DNA of 64,000 nt, taken from positions 14,504,149-14,568,148 of the forward strand of contig NC_052027.1 of assembly GCF_015832195.1 (NCBI RefSeq). Direction: 5' to 3'. Both the position numbers and the translations under genes were made by a program. The notes beneath the pieces were generated by a model that saw only the letters and a program-made list of their open reading frames with translations, was not told the origin of the DNA and ran no database searches. This document shows positions 1-35,900 of the stretch, piece by piece; position 1 is the first letter of the stretch; each line of letters begins with the position of its first letter. This stretch comes from Motacilla alba alba. Lineage: Eukaryota; Chordata; Aves; Passeriformes; Motacillidae.

Positions 1-1019
1 CCTGCACACCAGTGCCTGGACCAGAACCTGACCGGTGAGAGACTGGGGCCCCAGGGCTGAGGGGCTCCTCCCAGTGCCCCAAGATGGCCTGACACGCACA
101 GCCCTAGCACACGGAGGGGCTTGTGGCCATTCCATGTGGGCACCCTCATCTGCCCGTCTCATAGACCAGGGCATGCCCCAAGAGAAGGTGGGAGCTGCTG
201 GGGCTGGGGCTGGCCACTGGGAGAGAAGGGCATGAAGCCACACAGTGGCCTAGGGGGGCTGGCACCGAGCAGGTGGAAACCTGGCTCTGCCCTCGCTGCG
301 AGCCCGTGCCTGTCTTTGCCCTAGTGGACGATTTTGAGAGCGTTGAGGAGAAGGTGCTTTATGGGGCAGAGGACAACAGCACCTTCCTGGAGTGCGTGCC
401 CCGCTCCCCGCAGGCCAGCGTGCAGTGGTTTGTCCAGAGGCCCCCCGACGAGCAGCGGGACGAGGTGAGGCTCCCCTGCACTGCTCCCGTTGTGGGGACC
501 CAGGAGGGACGTGGGGCCAGAGCTGGACCCTCCCAACCGCACGGTGGCCCACAGGTGAAGACGGACGAGCGGATCCTGCAGACGGAGCACGGGCTACTGT
601 TCCGCAGGCTGCACCGGCACGATGCCGGCATCTACTACTGCAAAACGCTGGAGCACGGCTTCACCCAGACCGTGGCCAAGACCGCCCTGCGGGTGATCGC
701 CAGCGAGCAGCTGGCACACACCTTCCCCCGGGGCCGAGGCGACGAGCTCCCGCACCTGCTCTGCTCCGAGCCCCGGCTGCTGCCACAGGCTCCCAAAACC
801 TGGTTCAAGGACATCATGCACCTGGTCAGCTCCCAAAACCCACGGCGGGTGGAGGAGTACTGCGCCCGCCTCTGGTGCAGCAGCCGGCCTCACCCCCGCA
901 AGGGCAAACTGGCCCAGGCCAAGCTGGTCCTGGCTGGTGTGGATGTGGCCAAGAAGGGACGGGCAGCCAAAGCCCACGGCGAGAGGAACCGTGTGCCCCG
1001 GCAAGCACCGGCCTCTTAG
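1..1019 (+). CDS. SEMA3G: Class 3 semaphorin, C-terminal part (SEMA3G-like)
   Basis: Partial gene; its 5' part lies off the left edge. Three coding exons fit: 1-34, 325-464 and 555-1019. They have GT donors at 35 and 465, AG acceptors before 325 and 555, and phases that join to about 212 residues ending at TAG 1017-1019. Class 3 semaphorins are secreted guidance ligands acting through neuropilin/plexin receptors. Visible are the end of the PSI region, one Ig-like domain (paired cysteines in FLEC and IYYC, core EHGLLFRRL and LEHGFTQTV), and a basic tail with KTWFKDIMHL and EEYCARLWC. The wording of the Ig domain (VKTDERILQTEHGLLFRRL) is closest to what I know of SEMA3G rather than SEMA3A/B/F. 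Synteny with BAP1 and DNAH1 agrees. The family call is very secure; the exact paralogue is slightly less so. Confidence 0.9.
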
Positions 1020-2580: not shown

Positions 2581-2778
2581 AAGAGCTCTGCAGTGCCTGC
2601 ACTGACCCGTGGAGTGACCCCTGTGCCCCACGGAGCAGGGGCTGGGCTGCCCACGTTGGGGAGGCAGCAAGAGGGGGCCTGGAGGCTCTGCTGCCTTTAG
2701 GACCTGGCCCTGAGGCGAACTGTGACAGGCTGGAAGTGGCACCAAGGCCAGCAATGCTTCAAACTGAGCAGGACCAGA

Positions 2779-3007
2779 CACCAGGAGCAAACAGCCCCCT
2801 AAACAGTCCCCCCTTCTGGGGGTACACTAGGAGCAAACAGCCCCCTAAACAGACCCCCCTTCTGGGGGTACACCAGGAGCAAACAGCCCCCTAAACAGAC
2901 CCCCCTTCTGGGGGTACACCAGGAGCAAACAGCCCCCTAAACAGACCCCCTTCTGGGGGTACACCAGGAGCAAACAGCCCCCTAAACAGACCCCCTTCTG
3001 GGGGTAC
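2779..3007. repeat. 46-bp minisatellite, about five copies
   Basis: About five head-to-tail copies of a 45-47 bp unit containing CACCAGGAGCAAACAGCC, then CCTAAACAGAC, then a C-run and CTTCTGGGGGTA. Copies differ mainly in C-run length and single bases. Each unit contains a self-complementary core (C-run, TTCT, G-run) able to fold into a short hairpin. Open frames crossing it on the - strand translate to a repeating peptide and are not genes. Confidence 0.93.
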
Positions 3008-4189: not shown

Positions 4190-4900
4190 GCGAGGAAAGG
4201 GAGAGAAGAGAGGCTGGGAATCGGTCACCAGAAAACGCAGAGATGTGACAAACCCTATTGCTTTAGAGGCAATAAACTCCAGACATCCATCCTTCCTGCA
4301 CACCCTACACCAGAAAGAATGTGAAAAACAGGTTTACTGTCCTGTGAAACTTCAAACAGTTCCATAAAGGACAATAGGAGACAAAGACCATAAAGCAAAG
4401 ATTATTATGGCCGGGTGTGTCTCAGCCAAGAGCACACCTGCTATTGTGCAAACACCCTTTATGTACCATTTCTATGGCATCAGCCTGTTACATATTCATA
4501 AGCAATAATGCATAGCAAACTTTCCCCCAAACTATTTTACATATTCCAAGAACTGTTTAGCATGGCTCCTCCCCAGTTTCACCTTTTTGGGGCACGTGTA
4601 TTCCCTGGCTGTGGTTTTGGTCCATTTTATCATCACCTGCAGTTCGGGCCCTGGCCCACAGTGCCTTCCCAGGGTGAGTGCTGATGGCTGGCACATGTGT
4701 ACGGGTGTCCTCATCCTGTGTCCATTGGGTGTTATCCCATCCAAGCAGGGGGTTTAACACAAGCACACTTACATCCGTGCTGTTATTAGCTATTAGTGAA
4801 ATTAGCTATTTCACTAAGCTTAATGAACAATGGAAATAAAAATTGTATCTTTACAACAAAGTTGCTTTAACACCACACATGTAAAATCCATTTTAATATT
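4190..4900. other. AT-richer block, possible degenerate LTR remnant
   Basis: A 0.7-kb AT-rich block set in otherwise GC-rich intergenic DNA. It has AATAAA-like signals, phrases such as GGCCGGGTGTGTCTCAGCC that remind me of avian endogenous-retrovirus LTRs, and an inverted repeat at 4793-4817 (10-bp arms, 5-nt loop). There is no reading frame and no clear target duplication. The LTR assignment is a weak impression; it may simply be unannotated interspersed repeat. Confidence 0.25.
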
Positions 4901-4959
4901 TGTGAAAAGCCAACATTACGGTATGTATCGGGAGCAGTAAAGCTCCGGGTCCTCTCCCT

Positions 4960-5291
4960 GCTCGGAGCGGTTCTCCGGGCACACCGGGCCAATGCCGGGC
5001 CATTCCCGGGGCTCTCCCTCTGCTCGGAGCGGTTCTCCGGGCATGCCGGGCCGTTCCCGGGGCTGTGTCCCCGCTCGGAGCGGTTCTCCAGGGAATGCCG
5101 GGCCGTTCCCGGGGCTGTGTCCCCGCTCGGAGCGGCTCTCCGGGCACACCGGGCCATTCCCGGGCCGTTCCCGGGGCTGTGTCCCCGCTCGGAGCGGCTC
5201 TCCGGGCACACCGGGCCGTTCCCGGGGCTGTGTCCCCGTTCGGAGCGGTTCTCCGGGCACACCGGGCCATTCCCGGGCCGTTCCCGGTCCC
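4960..5291. repeat. GC-rich minisatellite before BAP1, about six copies
   Basis: About six copies of a 51-62 bp unit starting CGGAGCGGTTCTCCGGGCA and ending GGGGCTGTGTCCCCG. Some copies carry one extra 11-bp ATTCCCGGGCC subunit, which explains the length differences. The array stops about 140 bp before the BAP1 start codon. Long open frames on both strands here are by-products of the repeat and lack stops because of GC content. Confidence 0.93.
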
Positions 5292-5316
5292 GCGCGCGCC
5301 TCCGCCCCTCCACCAT

Positions 5317-5322
5317 CACGTG
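5317..5322. promoter_or_regulatory. E-box CACGTG
   Basis: Perfect CACGTG palindrome between the GC minisatellite and the CRE in the BAP1 promoter. It is a possible MYC/MAX or USF site, by motif only. Confidence 0.4.
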
Positions 5323-5341
5323 TCGGCGTGTCGCGGCCGGG

Positions 5342-5349
5342 TGACGTCA
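5342..5349. promoter_or_regulatory. Palindromic cAMP-response element
   Basis: TGACGTCA, a full CREB/ATF consensus palindrome, lies 85 bp upstream of the BAP1 ATG. A second half-site GTGACGCAA follows at about 5359. Occupancy is inferred from the motif only. Confidence 0.6.
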
Positions 5350-5433
5350 CCGCGCGCCGTGACGCAAGCGGCGAGCGCCGGCGGGGCCCGCAGCGGGGGC
5401 CGGCGATGGCGGCGGGGCCCGGCCCGCGGGAAG

Positions 5434-15911
<10,478 letters not shown>

Positions 15912-26900: not shown

Positions 26901-29900
26901 TGTGGGGAATGTTGTTTTTGGCCAGCTCCTCCATCCACTCTGCGGACAGTGCTGCACGGTAGTCTCCCTGTCATGAGAAACACCACCATAGCCTTTCTTT
27001 AAGTTGCAGCTAATGTGTTGTGAGTATCTAAACCCTCCTGCTCCCATTCAAATGGGCCTTGTGCAGCCTCTTGCACAAGCGGAGAGAGATCCTGGAGGGA
27101 TCTTGTTCCCTTGTGTCCTGTTCCTTTCTCCCTGGCCAGGACAGCAGAGCTGTAAACGGAGTGCTGACCACTGCACACTTACTGTGAAAGGGCCCAGGTA
27201 GGCCACAAAGCCAGCTGCCACCAGCACATCCCCAGAGCTGTTGTTGATTTTGTCATCCAGGCTCTCCACAGTGTCCTGCCAGCGCACCTTCTCATCAGCC
27301 AAGCTGTTGATGAGCTGTGGGATAAGTTGCACATGTGAGAGCTGCTGTGAGGTCTAACCTTGTGTCCTGGACCTGCTGTTCTCTGGGTAATGCTGCAGGT
27401 GACTTTGGTGACCAGAGGTTGGGGTGGCCCCTGAAATACTCTGAATTCTATCTGGCTTTAAGCACTCAATCCAGGGATTACTGGGCTGCTTTCAGATATG
27501 CTGGAAGACCTATTGTTAGCTGAGAAAGCTGTGCACAGGAGGACAGCAGCTTTTTACATCAGTGCCTGGCTAGCTTAGCTTTCCAGTCCTGTTGAGCTGC
27601 TGAGATCAGGCCAGGTAGCTTCAGCCTAGGATTGTCATGAGCTGCAGGCACGTGGATGTTTTCACCACTGTGCTGCTTGATCTGGAATTGAGTTGCCTCA
27701 TATAAGCAGGCAGAAGCTAGCTCTGTCCCTTACCACGTCGGCACGGGCCAATCTCTCCAGACACTGCTCACACTTCCTCTCCAACTCCTCCTTATTGGCT
27801 TTGCAGGCCTCGTACTTGGCTTGCAGCATGGCAATGCCATCTTCAACCTCCTTCAGGCGTTGCTTAGCTTCGTCCAGGACCAGCTGGGTGGCACGCAGGT
27901 CCTCCTCTGCCTCCCGCAAGGCTTGCTGGGGACATGCACAAGGAAACAGTGGGTATGTGGTCAGGCTCTTCCCCCACAAGCCAGAGATCTTGAAGCAAGA
28001 GTGGGCTTTCCATGAAAGCTCTTGCTGATAAGTGCTAGCTACTGATATCTCAATATCTCAGTCAATCCAATCCCTGGATGACAAAGGCATTACATCCTGA
28101 CCTGCAGAATGTAGTGATTCCCAGCATCTCCTGCAGAAGGGAGCTGCCAGTTCTGTGTTCCTGAACACCAAAGGCAACTGGGTCACACAGTTTCTTACCC
28201 GCTTGGGCTCCACGACCTTGGCCACAAAGTGGTACTTGTGCATGGCACGCACCCACTGGCAGATGGAGGTACAGGCTTTGGAGACCTTGGCAATGGCAGC
28301 TGGCTGAAACTCGTCATTGTCAATGTAGGGCTGGATGGCCTTGATCACACTCTCTGGAATATTGTCCTGCAAAGAATGGTGGGAGAGAAGGAGACTCTCC
28401 TTAGTCAGATCTCTAGCATGCTCATCACTGATCTCCTAAGGGCTTCCCCCAGAGGCAGCAGCACCCCAGGACCTGACAGGATGGTCAAGGCATCACACTG
28501 GAGCAAAAAGAATCAAATGACTGCATGTTGAGGTCTGGGAGCCACAGCTGTGGGATTGGGTAATTCCTTTCCCATACCACTTCTACCTAGCTCCTCCCCA
28601 CAAGAGAGCAGGGGGACAATGTGAAGAGCTGTGTGTCTGGGTCCCGTTGCCCAAGGCAACGAAGTGCACCCAACTCACATGAGAGCTTCCAGGCCAAACA
28701 CACCCTCGACCTTGGTGGTGCTGAAGGGTGTTGCACACAAGGAGCTCAATTTGTTACTGCTGTGAGAAGGATGTCTGTGAGGCAATACCTGATCCCAGCC
28801 ACAGCTTCCTTCTGCTACTGCTTACCTTATCATAATCATACAGGCTGTTTAGGAACTGCACTGGGTCCTGGAGAAGGGCCCTGCCTGGCTCCCAGTAATC
28901 ATCCACCTTGGTGCCTATCTTTTCTCCTGCCACCTTTTTGGGCTTTTTTCCATGCATAATGCAGACAGCTTCAATCACAATCTTCACACCAGGGGGAGGC
29001 CGCTGCAGGGCTCGTACCTGCAAAACCCAAATGAAAAACAGGGTTAACCTGATTCTCTGGGAGATGGGGTGCTTCTCCCTCCCTCAGCTGGGCCAGAGGA
29101 GACTGGGACCAGAGGCAGGAACAAGAGGCATTTGAAGGGAAAGCTGGTTATCAGAAAGGGCGTGGAGCAAACTAAACATAGGCTGAAAAAGCCTGCTCTG
29201 CTCCTCTAATAGGTGTATCCCTATGGCTGAATATGTCTTGGCAAAGGAGAAAAATCTGTATGGCCCTAGGGAGAACGCTGTATGGAAATGGGACACAGGC
29301 AGGCTTTCTCCCTTGTTCTGTGGGCTCTCATTTGTCTTGTACCCCACCACAGCGATGAGCTGGTCTTCAGCACTTGTGGAGGGACTGCTTGAGTCTTCCA
29401 TCAAGCAGGCATCTAGGAGTGCTGCTGCAGCACCCTTGAGAGGACTGTGGGTGTCAGGACCTCTGAGGATGACTCCTTCTTCTTCCCTTCTAGTGCTGAC
29501 CATCCTTGCCATGTTTAGCTGGAGGTATTCCCAGGCCTTCCCACTGGACACTGTCAACAGAGCAGCAGACTTTATGGCAAAGCTGAGGCTGATCTGCCCC
29601 CATGCAGACACCTTCTGTGAGAATGACTTTGAGTGGCTCTTTGACTGCCCTGAATCAAAGCAGTTCCTGGAGTGGTTCTGCAGCACGGTGGGTGAGGAGA
29701 ACGTGCTGAGCCCAGCTGAGGTGGAGGCTTATGAGGCCCTGCTGGCTGCAGGCAAACCCATCCTGGAAGGAGATGCCTTGGACGAGGCCCTGCAGATGTG
29801 CTGCCAGGTCCTGCAGCTCCCGAGCTCCATAGTGGATGAGGGGCCCTCTCAAGAGGCCCTGCAGCAGGAGCTTCAGGAGCTGAAGCACCACCGTGACTGC

Positions 29901-32900
29901 CAGCTCTGGAGGTACAGGAAGCTGTTGGCTTGGACAAACAAGCTGCAGCAGGAGCAGAAGTATATGGAGGAGGAGGAGAAAGTGGTGAAGCAGGAGTTGA
30001 GGGTGGCTCATATGGACTTGAAAGCAAAGATCTTCAAAACCAGAGCTGTCTTGAGCCAGGTCAGCAAGGCTGCAAAGCAGGTGTCTGAGTGTCCGGGGGA
30101 CATGGGGATGGGCCAGCTGCCAACACTGCTGTGCCAGATGGATCTTGCTCCTTACCTGGAGCAAGAACAACAGGCCACTGATGCATTTGAGAGCTTCATC
30201 CAGGAGGTCCTGCCACAGAGTGTTCAGGCTCCAGATGTTTGGGAAGCAAGTGCACAGGGAGAGAGCAGCCTGAAGGAAGGGCTGGAGGCTGAGACACAAA
30301 TGGACTCATACTGTGAAATACCAGAAGAAAGAAGAGGAGCTCCTTATCAAGAATGCACAAAAACGCTGTGGGGGGTGGCACCAGCAAGCTGGGGAAAATT
30401 GGTCCAAGGCTCAAAGGCAGAGCTCCTAGTGGAGGGAAGGAATGAGAAAGACATGGTGAGCATGGAGAGTGAGGAGAGAGATGGCAGCCAGGAAGTCATG
30501 GAGAGAAGGGACACCAAGAAAACATCAACACCAAAAAGTCTTGGGACTAATGAAGATGAGCTGCTGGAGGATCAAGACAGCTTCTGGAAGGAGCTGGGCC
30601 GAATAGAGACAGCATATATCTGTGCCCGGAGGGAGGTTATAGTCACAGCAGCAAAAGTGGAAGGCGCCCGTGCTGCGCTGGAGTGGGCCCAGAGGACTCT
30701 GGAAGCTCTTGAGGATAACCAGGTAAGGCCAGTGCCCCCATTCCTCCCCCATCCTGTGTGGCAGGGTCTGCCTGTGCCTCCTGCTGAGCGCTGGAGCCCA
30801 GCTGACAGGTTGGGAGGGGGTGGCAGAGGCAGGCGGCGCCGTGTCACCAGGCTGTTTGTGTCCCCGCACAGCAGGCCGTGGAGGCCGAGCTGCAGAGCCA
30901 GGCTGCCGTGCTGCAGAGGCAGCTCCACGTGCTGCGCTGGGACATCGCGCACACGCTGGCACACCAGCTGCTGCCCCTGCTGCAGGCAGAGGCCCGCCGC
31001 CTTCGCCTGCCCATCCTGCACAGGCACTTCAGCCTGCAAGTCGCCCGGCTCCAGAGCACTGCCAGGAGGCAGGAGGAGGCGGCTGCGTGGCTGCTGAGCC
31101 AGCACAGCCGCCTGGACCTGCTGGAGCTCCTGCTGAAACGGGAGAGACAGGAGCTGGAACACAAGGCTGCTTGGCTGGAGAAGATCGAAACTGTCGCGAG
31201 GGAATCCCAGACCAGGCTGCAGAAGCAGCAGATCTACTTCAGAGGTGCCAGGCCCTCCCAGAAGGGTCATCCGCACAAATGGATAGACCCCAAAGACCTC
31301 ACTGCTGTACGGTAAGGGCCTGGGGGGTCTGAGCTTGAAGAACAAACTAGGTGTGGGGACAGTGGCGTGGGAATGGCCGAGACAGGCAGCAGACCCAAGC
31401 TAGCAGAGAGACTAGCAGTGCTCTTCTGCCGGTGCAGAGCCCCTGTGACTCCATGGTGGTGTGAAATGCCCCAGATTTGCTTCTTTCTGCCTGACTTGGA
31501 CTGATGAAGCCAAGTATGGGCTTGGAGAATGGAATGAGTACAGAGAACAGAAATTTTTTATAGAATGTTAAGGTAGAGGGTGTAGAGGCAAGTCTTCAGC
31601 CATGGAGAAAGAGAGCTGGGCCACAAGAAACCACAAGCTGCTTAGAGCAAGACCTTTCTCTGACTAGGTGTTCTGCATTGCCTGGGTCTTCTCAGTCTTC
31701 CCCCACACAGTTTTGCAGCAGCTGGTGCCAGTGTCTGCCAAAAAGCAATCACACACTGGCTCTTGAGCCAGCCTGCTCCTTTATGGAGCTCTTCCCGGAG
31801 CTCCATGACATGGGATGCTCACCAGGACTGGCTGTCTTCTCACTGCTGACACACATCAGCTTGCATCCCAGTCTTACAGTGCACAACAACCTCAGAGCTC
31901 TGTTCTTGCTCCGTACTGGTGCTTCACTCACAGCTCCGGCTGGCTGTCCCCTCTCACAGGCTCTGGGACATGCTTATGGGGAAGGATCAGAAGAAGCAGC
32001 AGCTCTTCCGCAGTTATGCAGCCTTGGCAGCCAAGTGCTCCCAGCTGGTTCAGGACAAGAGGGCACTGGAAGCCCAGCTGGAAGCTCCTATGCTCCAGGT
32101 GTCTGCCCTGGAGTCCTCCATGGAAGTGCTCTATCACCAGCTGTACAACAGCTCCAACCAGCTGCAGCTCTCCTCGCCGGTAAGGCAGCACTTCCCCTCC
32201 CCTGGGCCTTGCTGGGTGGCAGCAGGTCAGCACTGGGGGCCCTCTGCCATCCCCTCTGGGTGCAGCGGGGACACCTCACTGCCTCTCGGCCACAGAGGGA
32301 GAGGAGCTTGGCCTCATCCTTGCCTTGCCCCAAAAACCCTCCAGTGAGGCAGCGGCTGGCTATGGGACAAAGGTGATTCTCACTGTGTCTCACATGTGCT
32401 GTTCAGTGTTGAGACTGGGGTGCCTTAGCCAAGGTGTCCCAGAAAGCCTCCTCTGCTCCTTGGACTGGGAGGGTTTGGAGGCCAGAGCTGGTGGGTAGTT
32501 TGTTTCTGGGGGGCTGAGCTGTTCCACAGGCATTAAGAAAATCCCCTTATTTCTCCATGTTCACGTGAGTTTGGGCTCTGTCCCTTAGGAGATGTCTGAG
32601 CTGATGCAGCAATTGATCATCATGGAGGATGACCTCTACCAAAAACTGACAGACCTCCTGAGTGACTTGGAGGTGAAGCGCAGGTCTCTGGAGAACCCCA
32701 TCCTGCAGGCAGAGCGCAACCTTTATGTGTATTTTTACTGCAATGAGGACAGGCTGAGGCAGGAGGTGGAGGAGCTGGAGAAGCAGGCATCAGCTTCCTC
32801 CAAGGGACCCCTGAGGGAGCTGCCCTATGGAAAGGAGTAGGTCAAAGGGATCCTTGCTCCCTGCCACAGCAGTGGTGTCCTCTTTTGGTTGGGCTGGGTC

Positions 32901-35900
32901 CTTAATTCTGGACTGGGAGAGAACTCTGGTGGTCTCTGCTCTGGTGTCATGACCTGGCAGCTTGATTTAAAAGAAACTAGGAGCTTAATCCTTAAATACA
33001 GAGTTTCTGGGGGCTGGTTTAGATGACGTGTAAGAAATTGATCCATCTTGTGGCATTGGAAGCCTTGCACAGACAAGACACTTCTTGTGCCAGCTCTACA
33101 AGAGGGTGGGGGCTGGGGGCTAGTGGACTTACACCGTGTCTTTCCCCACTTTCTGATGAAAGGGGTTTTGTGTGTTTTTGGGAGAATAAAAAGGTCTGTT
33201 ACTCACAACTGCAGAGCAGTAAGCCCATCCCTGTGTGGTGAAATCTGTACTTATTGAGTGTGCTGTCTTGGCCTGTGATGCTTGCAGGTTCAGAATCACC
33301 CTTCTTTCTCTCACTAGCCTATTTCAAGCCACTATTCCTTGAATTCAGACTGCTGCCTCTTCTCTGCCTGTGGTGGATCCCTTTTCAAAGAGCCTGCAGG
33401 TTCAGGGCGCTGCCAGCTCTGTCCCTGTGTTGCACAGTCAGTACTTGGGGTTGTTTGGTGGTAGCTGCTGCCTGCCCCTGTGGACAGGCATGTAGGGTGA
33501 GCCCTCCTCCACAGCATCTCCAGGATATGCCAGAAACATCCAGGGGCCACTCCCTGCCTTTCTGCCCTTCAATTTGCATCTGAAGGAGTGAAGGTGAGGA
33601 GCTGCACAGGGAGCTGCCCAGAGTGAGCCCAGGGGGATGGATGGATAGAGGAAAAGGCTGGGGATGTTGCAGGCTTATTGAAAGGGAATTGCTGCAAAGG
33701 GGATGCTGTCCCTGACCAGCTTTGCCACCCTCTCCCTTGACACAGTTACCTCTGTAACATCATTTCTGTTGAGGTTCTTCAGGCTGGCAAGAGCAGCATC
33801 CAGGGCTGGGAGGGCTTCAGCCAAGTCCTTCTGAGCATCATCTGCAATGGCTTGGGCTGTCTGAGCTTTCTCATTGGCCTTTGCCTCCTCAGCCTGCACG
33901 GCACTTCTTGTCTTTTCAGCCACTGCTGTGTCCACCTGCAACACCAGAGACAGCCTCAGAAGCATGCTGGAGGCAGAGCTTGGCTTGGCACTGCTGGGAA
34001 AGGATCACAGCTGTCCTGGCAGCTTGTGTGTCTTCCCCCAGCAGACCTCAGGGACCTAACTGCTGCACGGGATGCCCTCCCTGCACCATACTGGGAGAAG
34101 GTTTTTGTCAGCCTGTATAAACCATCCACAAGCTGCAGCTCTGGTTGTGCCTGAAATGATGTTAGTCTTGCAGGAATTAGCTGCTCTGCTCATTTTTCAA
34201 TTGGCACAAGTAGAGGATGCATGGGGTTGCAAATTTGTAGGGAGATGGAGGAGTAGGAAGATATGCTTAGGGGTTTGTTTCTAAAGCTGCCACTTCTGCA
34301 TACCCCAAGAGTTAAAACACTACCAGGAGGCATAATGTGGAGTATAGCCAAATCCTTATCTGCTGTGTGGGAATTGAGGTGATTGCAGAGTCTTTCCACT
34401 CTCCATGCAGAGCTGTATTATGTTAGTGTCACTGTCCCAGTGTGGCCACCTCACAGCAGGAGACAGGCAGGGAGGAACACAAGGAGAGAAGGCAGTGACA
34501 GCCAACACAAACAGTTCCCTCTTGTGAAGTGGCATGAGTGACTGTGTGATGGTCCTTGAGGTCTGGGGGGCAGGCTGCAGCTGGGTCAGCTCCCTGTGGA
34601 TGGGATGTGGAGGAATGATCCTGTTCAGCAACGAGCCTGGCTTAGAGCTGCTCAGGCCACCTCAGGATTGTGTTAGTGTTGCTAGACTGTGCTTGCAAAA
34701 GCTTGGGAGCTCGGCTGGCTGACCCTGGGTGGTGCTTTTAGACAGGGCCATGGGAGCCATTTCTTCTACAACAACAGGTGCTCCCCAGCAGCAGAGCAGG
34801 ACCCCAGCAGGAGGCAGTTAGTGCGGTCACTGCAGCTCTGCACAAATATCTGCCGTGCCAATCGGAGCCTGTTTTTACCTCTGATCAAGCAGGATTTTGC
34901 ACAATCCCTGCCAGGCCCCTCCAGCCTGTGTCCAGTGTGAGCAGAGTTAGTGCAGGGCTGCCTGAAGCGGTACCTTGATCTGCTCGATGGTTGCCTCGGT
35001 GTCCTTGGCTGCCTGCGCCAGGAGAGGGCGGGAGTTCTCCAGCTCCTCCTGCATCTTCGCTACATCCTCTGCGGTTCGCAGGAGCTATGGGAGCAAAGCA
35101 GAGCTAAGAGCAGGGGCAGCAGCCATAGAAAGCCTTAGGAAAGGGCTGTGCTGCTCTGGAGGGTGCTCCCTGCCTGGCGCTGGGCTGTGCAAAGCACAGG
35201 TCTTGCCCTGGGTCCTGCTTAAGCAACAATCTGACACTGTGGTGTGCCTATGACCAGCAGTGTCTAACGTTGCCTGCACATGTTAGGCATTACTTCATGA
35301 GCTCATGGCAATGAGGCAGCAGAACAATGTTTCTGTTAGAGGGCTTTAAATTACAAGGTTAATAAGGAACATCCTGAGAGCTGAGCTACACAGAGGTCTG
35401 TGGTCCCCGAAGACTGGGGATCATTATTCTTTAGCGCTGTTACAGACTCAGACCTTCAGGAAGCCTGGTCCTGGCAGAAGGCACAGTTATCTCTTGCTTT
35501 AGCCTGAGTTTTTTCCTGTTACACAGGGCATGTGTAGGACATCTCACTGCATCTCTGCAGCTGTGAATACATTTCTCAGAGGGTGGCCCCAAAACTTTCC
35601 TGGGTAGGAGGAACAGACCTTGTCTAGGCCACTTTGCATCCTGTTCTTGGCTGTCTTCAGTTCCTGTTGCTTCTTTCCAATGAGGGAACTGAAGATGCTG
35701 AGGAACTCCAGGTAGCTTTTGGGAGTGATATAATTGTGTCTGCCCAGTTCTGCTAGGAACAACTGGCACTTCTTTGCCACGCTCTGGTGGATTGCTACGC
35801 ATACTTGAATCTACAAGGAGAAAGGAAAGCAACAAGGAAAGGAAAAGAAACAAAAGAAAGAAACATTCAGTAGTGAACATGTGAAAGGCAAATCTATGTG

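Follow-up and report, generated by a model that had tools for sequence, protein, structure and literature searches.

Augmin is the machine that branches spindle microtubules, and HAUS3 is one of its parts. A subunit of another microtubule-nucleation complex has been duplicated for germ-line use in Drosophila, which has testis-specific paralogues of the gamma-tubulin complex. Vertebrate augmin is described as a complex of eight subunits, HAUS1-8 (PMC10102177; the papers cited here and below were covered in part), in which the 4H-arm is made up of all four subunits of TIII and the HAUS3/HAUS5 arm is the part bound by TII (PMC9512787), and an arrangement of HAUS3 with POLN has been described for vertebrates (PMC4591814). 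Here we describe a HAUS3-related gene in a 64,000-nucleotide stretch of the Motacilla alba alba genome (the window, C12:14504149-14568148), nested in antisense within an intron of the axonemal dynein gene DNAH1.

The nested protein is like HAUS3 from two reference chains (7sqk_C and 8at2_C) and from a second wagtail locus on C4, both in its match to the Pfam family HAUS-augmin3 and in its full-length alignment, and the three introns of the nested gene match those of the C4 gene. It is unlike them in sharing only 31% identity with C4, in an 85-residue insertion, in its DNAH1 locus, in the lack of a CpG island and in evolving about five times faster. Chicken HAUS3L, which is named HAUS3-like and is an ovarian-follicle transcript, can be likened to it by name. 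The Drosophila paralogues belong to another complex in another animal, and germ-line use is theirs, whereas for the nested gene it is what we propose. We consider it probable that this gene is a bird-line duplicate encoding a fast-evolving alternative HAUS3 subunit, which would give an augmin with an altered arm. Its use would be tissue-restricted, with germ cells as the most probable site.

An intact HAUS3 gene within a DNAH1 intron

The nested gene begins with an ATG at 29511 and runs for 707 codons and a TAG stop, with three GT...AG introns that have GTAAGG donors and lie in phases 0, 2 and 0. The features of the locus are as follows.

28826..29017, minus strand: DNAH1 exon after the intron (outer end judged by eye)
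29018..33749, minus strand: DNAH1 intron holding the whole nested gene (splice sites read; flanking peptide matches DNAH1 chains)
29485..29493, plus strand: candidate 3' splice site of a putative 5' non-coding exon, CCCTTCTAG (proposed from the sequence)
29511..30722, plus strand: nested HAUS3 coding exon 1, with the N-terminal bundle, the start of the HAUS3/HAUS5 arm and the private insertion
30333..30587, plus strand: private 85-codon insertion in the arm (from alignments; ends alignment-dependent)
30872..31311, plus strand: nested HAUS3 coding exon 2
31960..32179, plus strand: nested HAUS3 coding exon 3, after a phase-2 intron common to C4 HAUS3
32589..32840, plus strand: nested HAUS3 coding exon 4, stop TAG at 32838-32840
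33185..33190, plus strand: AATAAA polyadenylation signal
33750..33935, minus strand: DNAH1 exon of the stalk region, preceding the intron (outer end judged by eye)

A single minus-strand DNAH1 intron, running from 33749 to 29018, encloses the entire gene. Its 5' splice site reads ACAGAG/GTAACT at 33750/33749, with 33750 the last base of the preceding exon, and its other end reads TTTTGCAG/GTACGA at 29018/29017, the next exon starting at 29017. When the two flanking exons are joined, their 126-residue peptide aligns at equal length with residues 33-158 of 8i3j_A (E 2e-61) and 2876-3001 of 8j07_g6 (E 4e-60), both dynein axonemal heavy chain 1, the name carried by the top four of the 76 matches. 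The reading frame of the nested gene is open upstream as far as 29187, and the pyrimidine-rich acceptor CCCTTCTAG ends at 29493, 17 bases 5' of the ATG. A non-coding first exon is therefore likely, and the true N-terminus is uncertain. From the last part of intron 1 through most of exon 2 (30800-31199), GC content is markedly higher than in the rest of the gene, at 0.71 and 0.65 in two 200-base bins.

Homology to HAUS3 extends over the whole length of the protein, from the N-terminus to the C-terminal helices. The match to PF14932 (HAUS-augmin3) spans profile positions 1-260 of 260 at 229.4 bits (E 6.8e-68; curated cut-off 29.4 bits). Stretches 21-249 and 350-692, covering both halves, match 7sqk_C, which we take to be human HAUS3 (E 1.3e-58), and stretches 29-233 and 353-695 match 8at2_C, presumably Xenopus HAUS3. 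The coding sequence contains only its terminal stop in frame 0, as compared with 24 and 27 stops in the other plus-strand frames and 6, 20 and 17 in the reverse frames. In 300 order-1 resamples of this sequence, the longest open run averaged 122 residues and reached at most 267. GC content by codon position is 0.63/0.37/0.71. A pseudogene recognizable by lesions was rejected: the frame is intact to the final stop, and GT and AG are present at all three introns. Splice sites, frame and family match thus bear out the original prediction of a complete four-exon plus-strand HAUS3 gene at 29018-33749 within one DNAH1 intron. Its further suggestion, that the gene is likely functional, agrees with the intact frame and with the retention of introns and conserved sites. 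Viral and prokaryote contigs, when scanned, contained 1 and 10 stretches that fit a pattern, none of which was confirmed, and thus no relative. The window yielded neither a tRNA (bacterial settings) nor any Rfam hit that reached the gathering score.

A second HAUS3 gene and the origin of the copy

Is the nested gene an additional copy, or the relocated HAUS3 of this genome? When we searched the 1.07 Gb assembly with nested exon 1, it matched itself and C4:8442755-8443531 (two of the six scored candidates), while exons 2-4 matched on C12 and C4 only (six of 14), and the C4 protein, used as a query in turn, returned the same two loci only (eight of 11). The search scores best candidates only, and a very diverged third HAUS3 copy could escape it. 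The C4 gene, of four coding exons, encodes a protein of 615 amino acids with 50.5% identity to human HAUS3 (287/568 aligned). The nested protein is 31.0% identical to C4 (186/600), 30.8% to human (173/562) and 29.1% to frog HAUS3. Downstream of C4 HAUS3 and on the same strand, 12 pieces match POLN at 8.374-8.419 Mb (E 8e-13 to 0.003; the query was a human sequence, and 80 kb around C4 HAUS3 were covered). The canonical HAUS3 locus is the one shared with POLN; the nested gene lies in DNAH1 instead, although no search of the window for POLN was made. With POLN downstream, as in the arrangement described for vertebrates (PMC4591814), C4 HAUS3 is the canonical gene and the window gene an additional copy, as had been predicted. 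The check that had been proposed, a search of this genome for a second HAUS3, thus upheld the paralogy. Because C4 carries an intact HAUS3, followed on its own strand by POLN exons, there is virtually no probability that the window holds a relocated single gene, and this candidate was ruled out. It was also suggested earlier that the nested copy might replace the canonical subunit, which is unlikely because the canonical gene is itself intact and evolves at a much lower rate.

The copy could have been made from RNA or from DNA. The introns of the two genes fall at alignment columns 408/407, 554/554 and 632/632, in phases 0, 2 and 0 in both. All three introns of the coding part are common to both genes, and the copy was therefore made at the DNA level; a processed retrocopy was rejected on the same ground. 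When 6 kb of the window were compared with 20 kb of C4 DNA, two matches with E <1e-4 were found. Both fall in coding exons; introns and flanks gave no clear match.

With regard to timing, the quartet that joins the window gene with C4 HAUS3 against human and frog was best in all 20 combinations of four alignments and five models, by 4.7-12.7 log units over the second-best tree, and the alternatives had approximately unbiased (AU) test values of 0.003-0.18. Rooting with Arabidopsis gave (frog,(human,(window,C4))) as the best five-taxon tree, and three competing trees had AU values of 0.011, 0.035 and 0.008. When the rival tree joining window and frog was fitted, its inner branch went to zero, and among 99 scorable simulations (of 100) on this tree the three quartets were best 36, 31 and 32 times. 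The lead of window and C4 in these simulations was at most 3.5 log units, as compared with 12.5 observed under the same model. At 148 sites where C4, human and frog all differ, the nested copy agrees with C4 27 times, with human 13 times and with frog 9 times. These comparisons favour the view that HAUS3 was duplicated in the lineage to birds once this had separated from mammals, with the nested copy as sister of C4 HAUS3.

An older origin, in which the copy split off before birds and mammals diverged and was lost in mammals, or at least in human, is a minority possibility that has evidence of its own. The nested protein is nearly equidistant from C4, human and frog HAUS3, and the quartet-informative sites number 7 for window with C4 but 9 and 11 for the other quartets. 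Of 87 sites at which human and frog agree with each other but not with C4, the nested copy has the human and frog state at 20 and the C4 state at seven. Ten of the 40 rival-quartet AU values are at least 0.05, comprising all eight under Q.bird (0.057-0.18), so that the older placement is not rejected under that model, and two of eight under JTT (0.056 and 0.063). The agreement of all 20 likelihood comparisons, the rooted five-taxon test, the excess of matches to C4 at the all-different sites and a margin reached in none of the 99 scored simulations nevertheless speak for the bird-line origin. On that reading, the duplication lies 0.43 along the bird branch (0.22-0.66 in 100 bootstraps on a fixed tree). 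This branch has lasted about 320 million years since the split from mammals, which would place the duplication, very roughly and assuming an even rate, at about 110-250 million years ago.

Rate, constraint and the HAUS3/HAUS5 arm

Since the duplication, the nested copy has evolved at a median of 5.0 times the rate of C4 HAUS3 (3.5-9.2 in 100 bootstraps with fixed tree and gamma shape). It keeps 103 of the 194 sites that are equal in C4, human and frog, but 42 of the 149 that C4 shares with just one of human and frog (Fisher p 4e-6). When the C4 coding sequence was allowed to drift neutrally to 50% identity, stops averaged 18.6 and numbered at least nine in each of 200 runs; the nested frame has 0. 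At the level of sequence, the intact frame and the conserved sites kept show that nested HAUS3 has been under past selection. Could it have lost its role so recently that lesions have yet to appear? The very fast evolution and the absence of a CpG-island promoter would fit such a formerly working copy. We regard this as improbable in view of the 707 intact codons, the splice sites, the polyadenylation signal, the GC contents by codon position, the conserved sites kept and, if it is the same gene, the chicken HAUS3L transcript.

The divergence is unevenly spread. By human residues, the branch lengths of the nested copy are 1.14 for 1-95, 2.50 for 96-434 and 1.05 for 435-603, as compared with 0.33, 0.40 and 0.28 for C4 HAUS3, and the identity between the two genes is 36/92, 75/330 and 68/156, respectively. 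Residues 96-434 are the HAUS3/HAUS5 arm as given in the part of PMC9512787 covered; the labels of the outer segments, N-terminal bundle and 4H-arm, are our extension. Thus, the HAUS3/HAUS5 arm is the most diverged part of the nested copy, and the C-terminal part and N-terminus are the least. The 85-residue arm insertion is private to the nested copy and is absent from C4, human and frog HAUS3.

The nested protein may therefore still join TIII while presenting an altered arm. In the mechanism that we propose, a DNA-level duplication in the lineage to birds would have placed a complete, intron-containing copy of HAUS3 in antisense orientation into a DNAH1 intron, where it retained the family features and the frame but evolved about fivefold faster than its C4 parent. 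Its product would serve as an alternative form of HAUS3 and join HAUS5, together with HAUS1 and HAUS4, through the better-kept C-terminal helices and N-terminus, and the outcome would be an augmin with an altered HAUS3/HAUS5 arm. If the nested protein enters augmin, it would be a lineage-specific alternative subunit of an eight-subunit complex and a natural experiment on which regions of HAUS3 tolerate change.

Possible tissue of use and other features of the window

Use of the altered augmin would be confined to a particular tissue. Germ cells are the most probable one, with the oocyte as a first guess. No CpG island (criteria: 200 bp, GC 0.55, observed/expected 0.6) is present in the window beyond 18300, and hence none near nested HAUS3, whereas an island of 1,050 bp lies some 1.3 kb 5' of the ATG of C4 HAUS3. 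The lack of an island fits restricted rather than broad expression. In chicken, HAUS3L (GeneID 101751348) is one of the ten genes that fall most strongly in F6 as compared with small yellow follicles, with a log2 fold change of -6.13 (adjusted p 0.0005), a drop of about 70-fold (PMC7367319). BMP15, termed oocyte-secreted elsewhere (PMC4648498), likewise falls in the same study (PMC7367319). If HAUS3L is the nested locus, this drop hints at expression in the ovary. EIF4E1B, in the same table as HAUS3L, is an oocyte gene. Nested HAUS3 may thus be used in germ cells, perhaps in the egg. A more specific proposal is that of a bird germ-line (oocyte) augmin with a remodelled HAUS3/HAUS5 arm, to which the microtubule-binding half docks. 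It would tune branching to the meiotic or early cleavage spindle of the huge, yolky egg and evolve fast under reproductive selection; we offer this as a speculative idea, less likely to hold than to fail.

Position suggests another tissue. Along the lines of the original suggestion, the nested gene could encode a ciliary or testis subunit co-expressed with DNAH1, profiting from host chromatin that is open in ciliated cells and in cells undergoing spermatogenesis. Its place within DNAH1 fits this, and fast-evolving duplicates are often testis genes. The gene is antisense to DNAH1, however, and needs its own promoter for that reason, and the sole expression lead found is ovarian; we think this alternative rather unlikely.

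Several points weigh against an alternative subunit used in germ cells. Expression of nested HAUS3 in this species, its assembly into augmin, its tissue role and the mechanism are things we infer, and chicken HAUS3L is linked to the nested locus by name only. POU4F3, LHX3 and CDH15, which fall in the same table, are not oocyte genes to our knowledge. The part of PMC7367319 covered does not name the cell type that expresses HAUS3L, and a term search of the main text of a chicken oocyte-gene paper (PMC9570461) found none of HAUS, EIF4E1B and BMP15, which points neither way. An AlphaFold model of nested exon 1 with its C4 counterpart had a mean pLDDT of 43, too poor for use, and a search of the genome for the family of the partner subunit HAUS5 gave no match among seven scored candidates, but none in its 14 controls either, so that it carries no weight. 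The Q.bird and JTT values and quartet site counts given above belong here as well.

By title, abstract and passage, the literature covered yielded, apart from the HAUS3L table entry, no work on an additional HAUS3 in birds. To judge by titles and abstracts, papers on HAUS3 together with DNAH1 or zebra finch, or on 'HAUS3-like' or GeneID 101751348, include none that deals with a gene of this kind, and those on HAUS3 with chicken and testis concern POLN. The phrase 'augmin-like complex subunit 3-like' occurs in a rainbow trout egg-transcriptome paper (PMC6486991). Nested HAUS3 is a lineage-specific, fast-evolving paralogue that has possibly been named already in the chicken annotation, and searches for bird 'HAUS3' may return two very different genes.

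Elsewhere in the window, coding exons of BAP1 lie at 5434-10570 on the plus strand, as matched by human peptides, and start inside a 1.1 kb CpG island at 4851-5950. An open frame of 284 amino acids at 165-1016, plus strand, is possibly an immunoglobulin-like gene, with a V-set match below the Pfam cut-off and weak similarity to JAM1 (E 9e-4); a match to DUF2656, also below the cut-off, is likely due to chance. Two tandem arrays are present, one of five copies of a 46-base unit at 2778-3007, and one of GC-rich 51/113/165-base units at 4955-5287, within the BAP1 CpG island.

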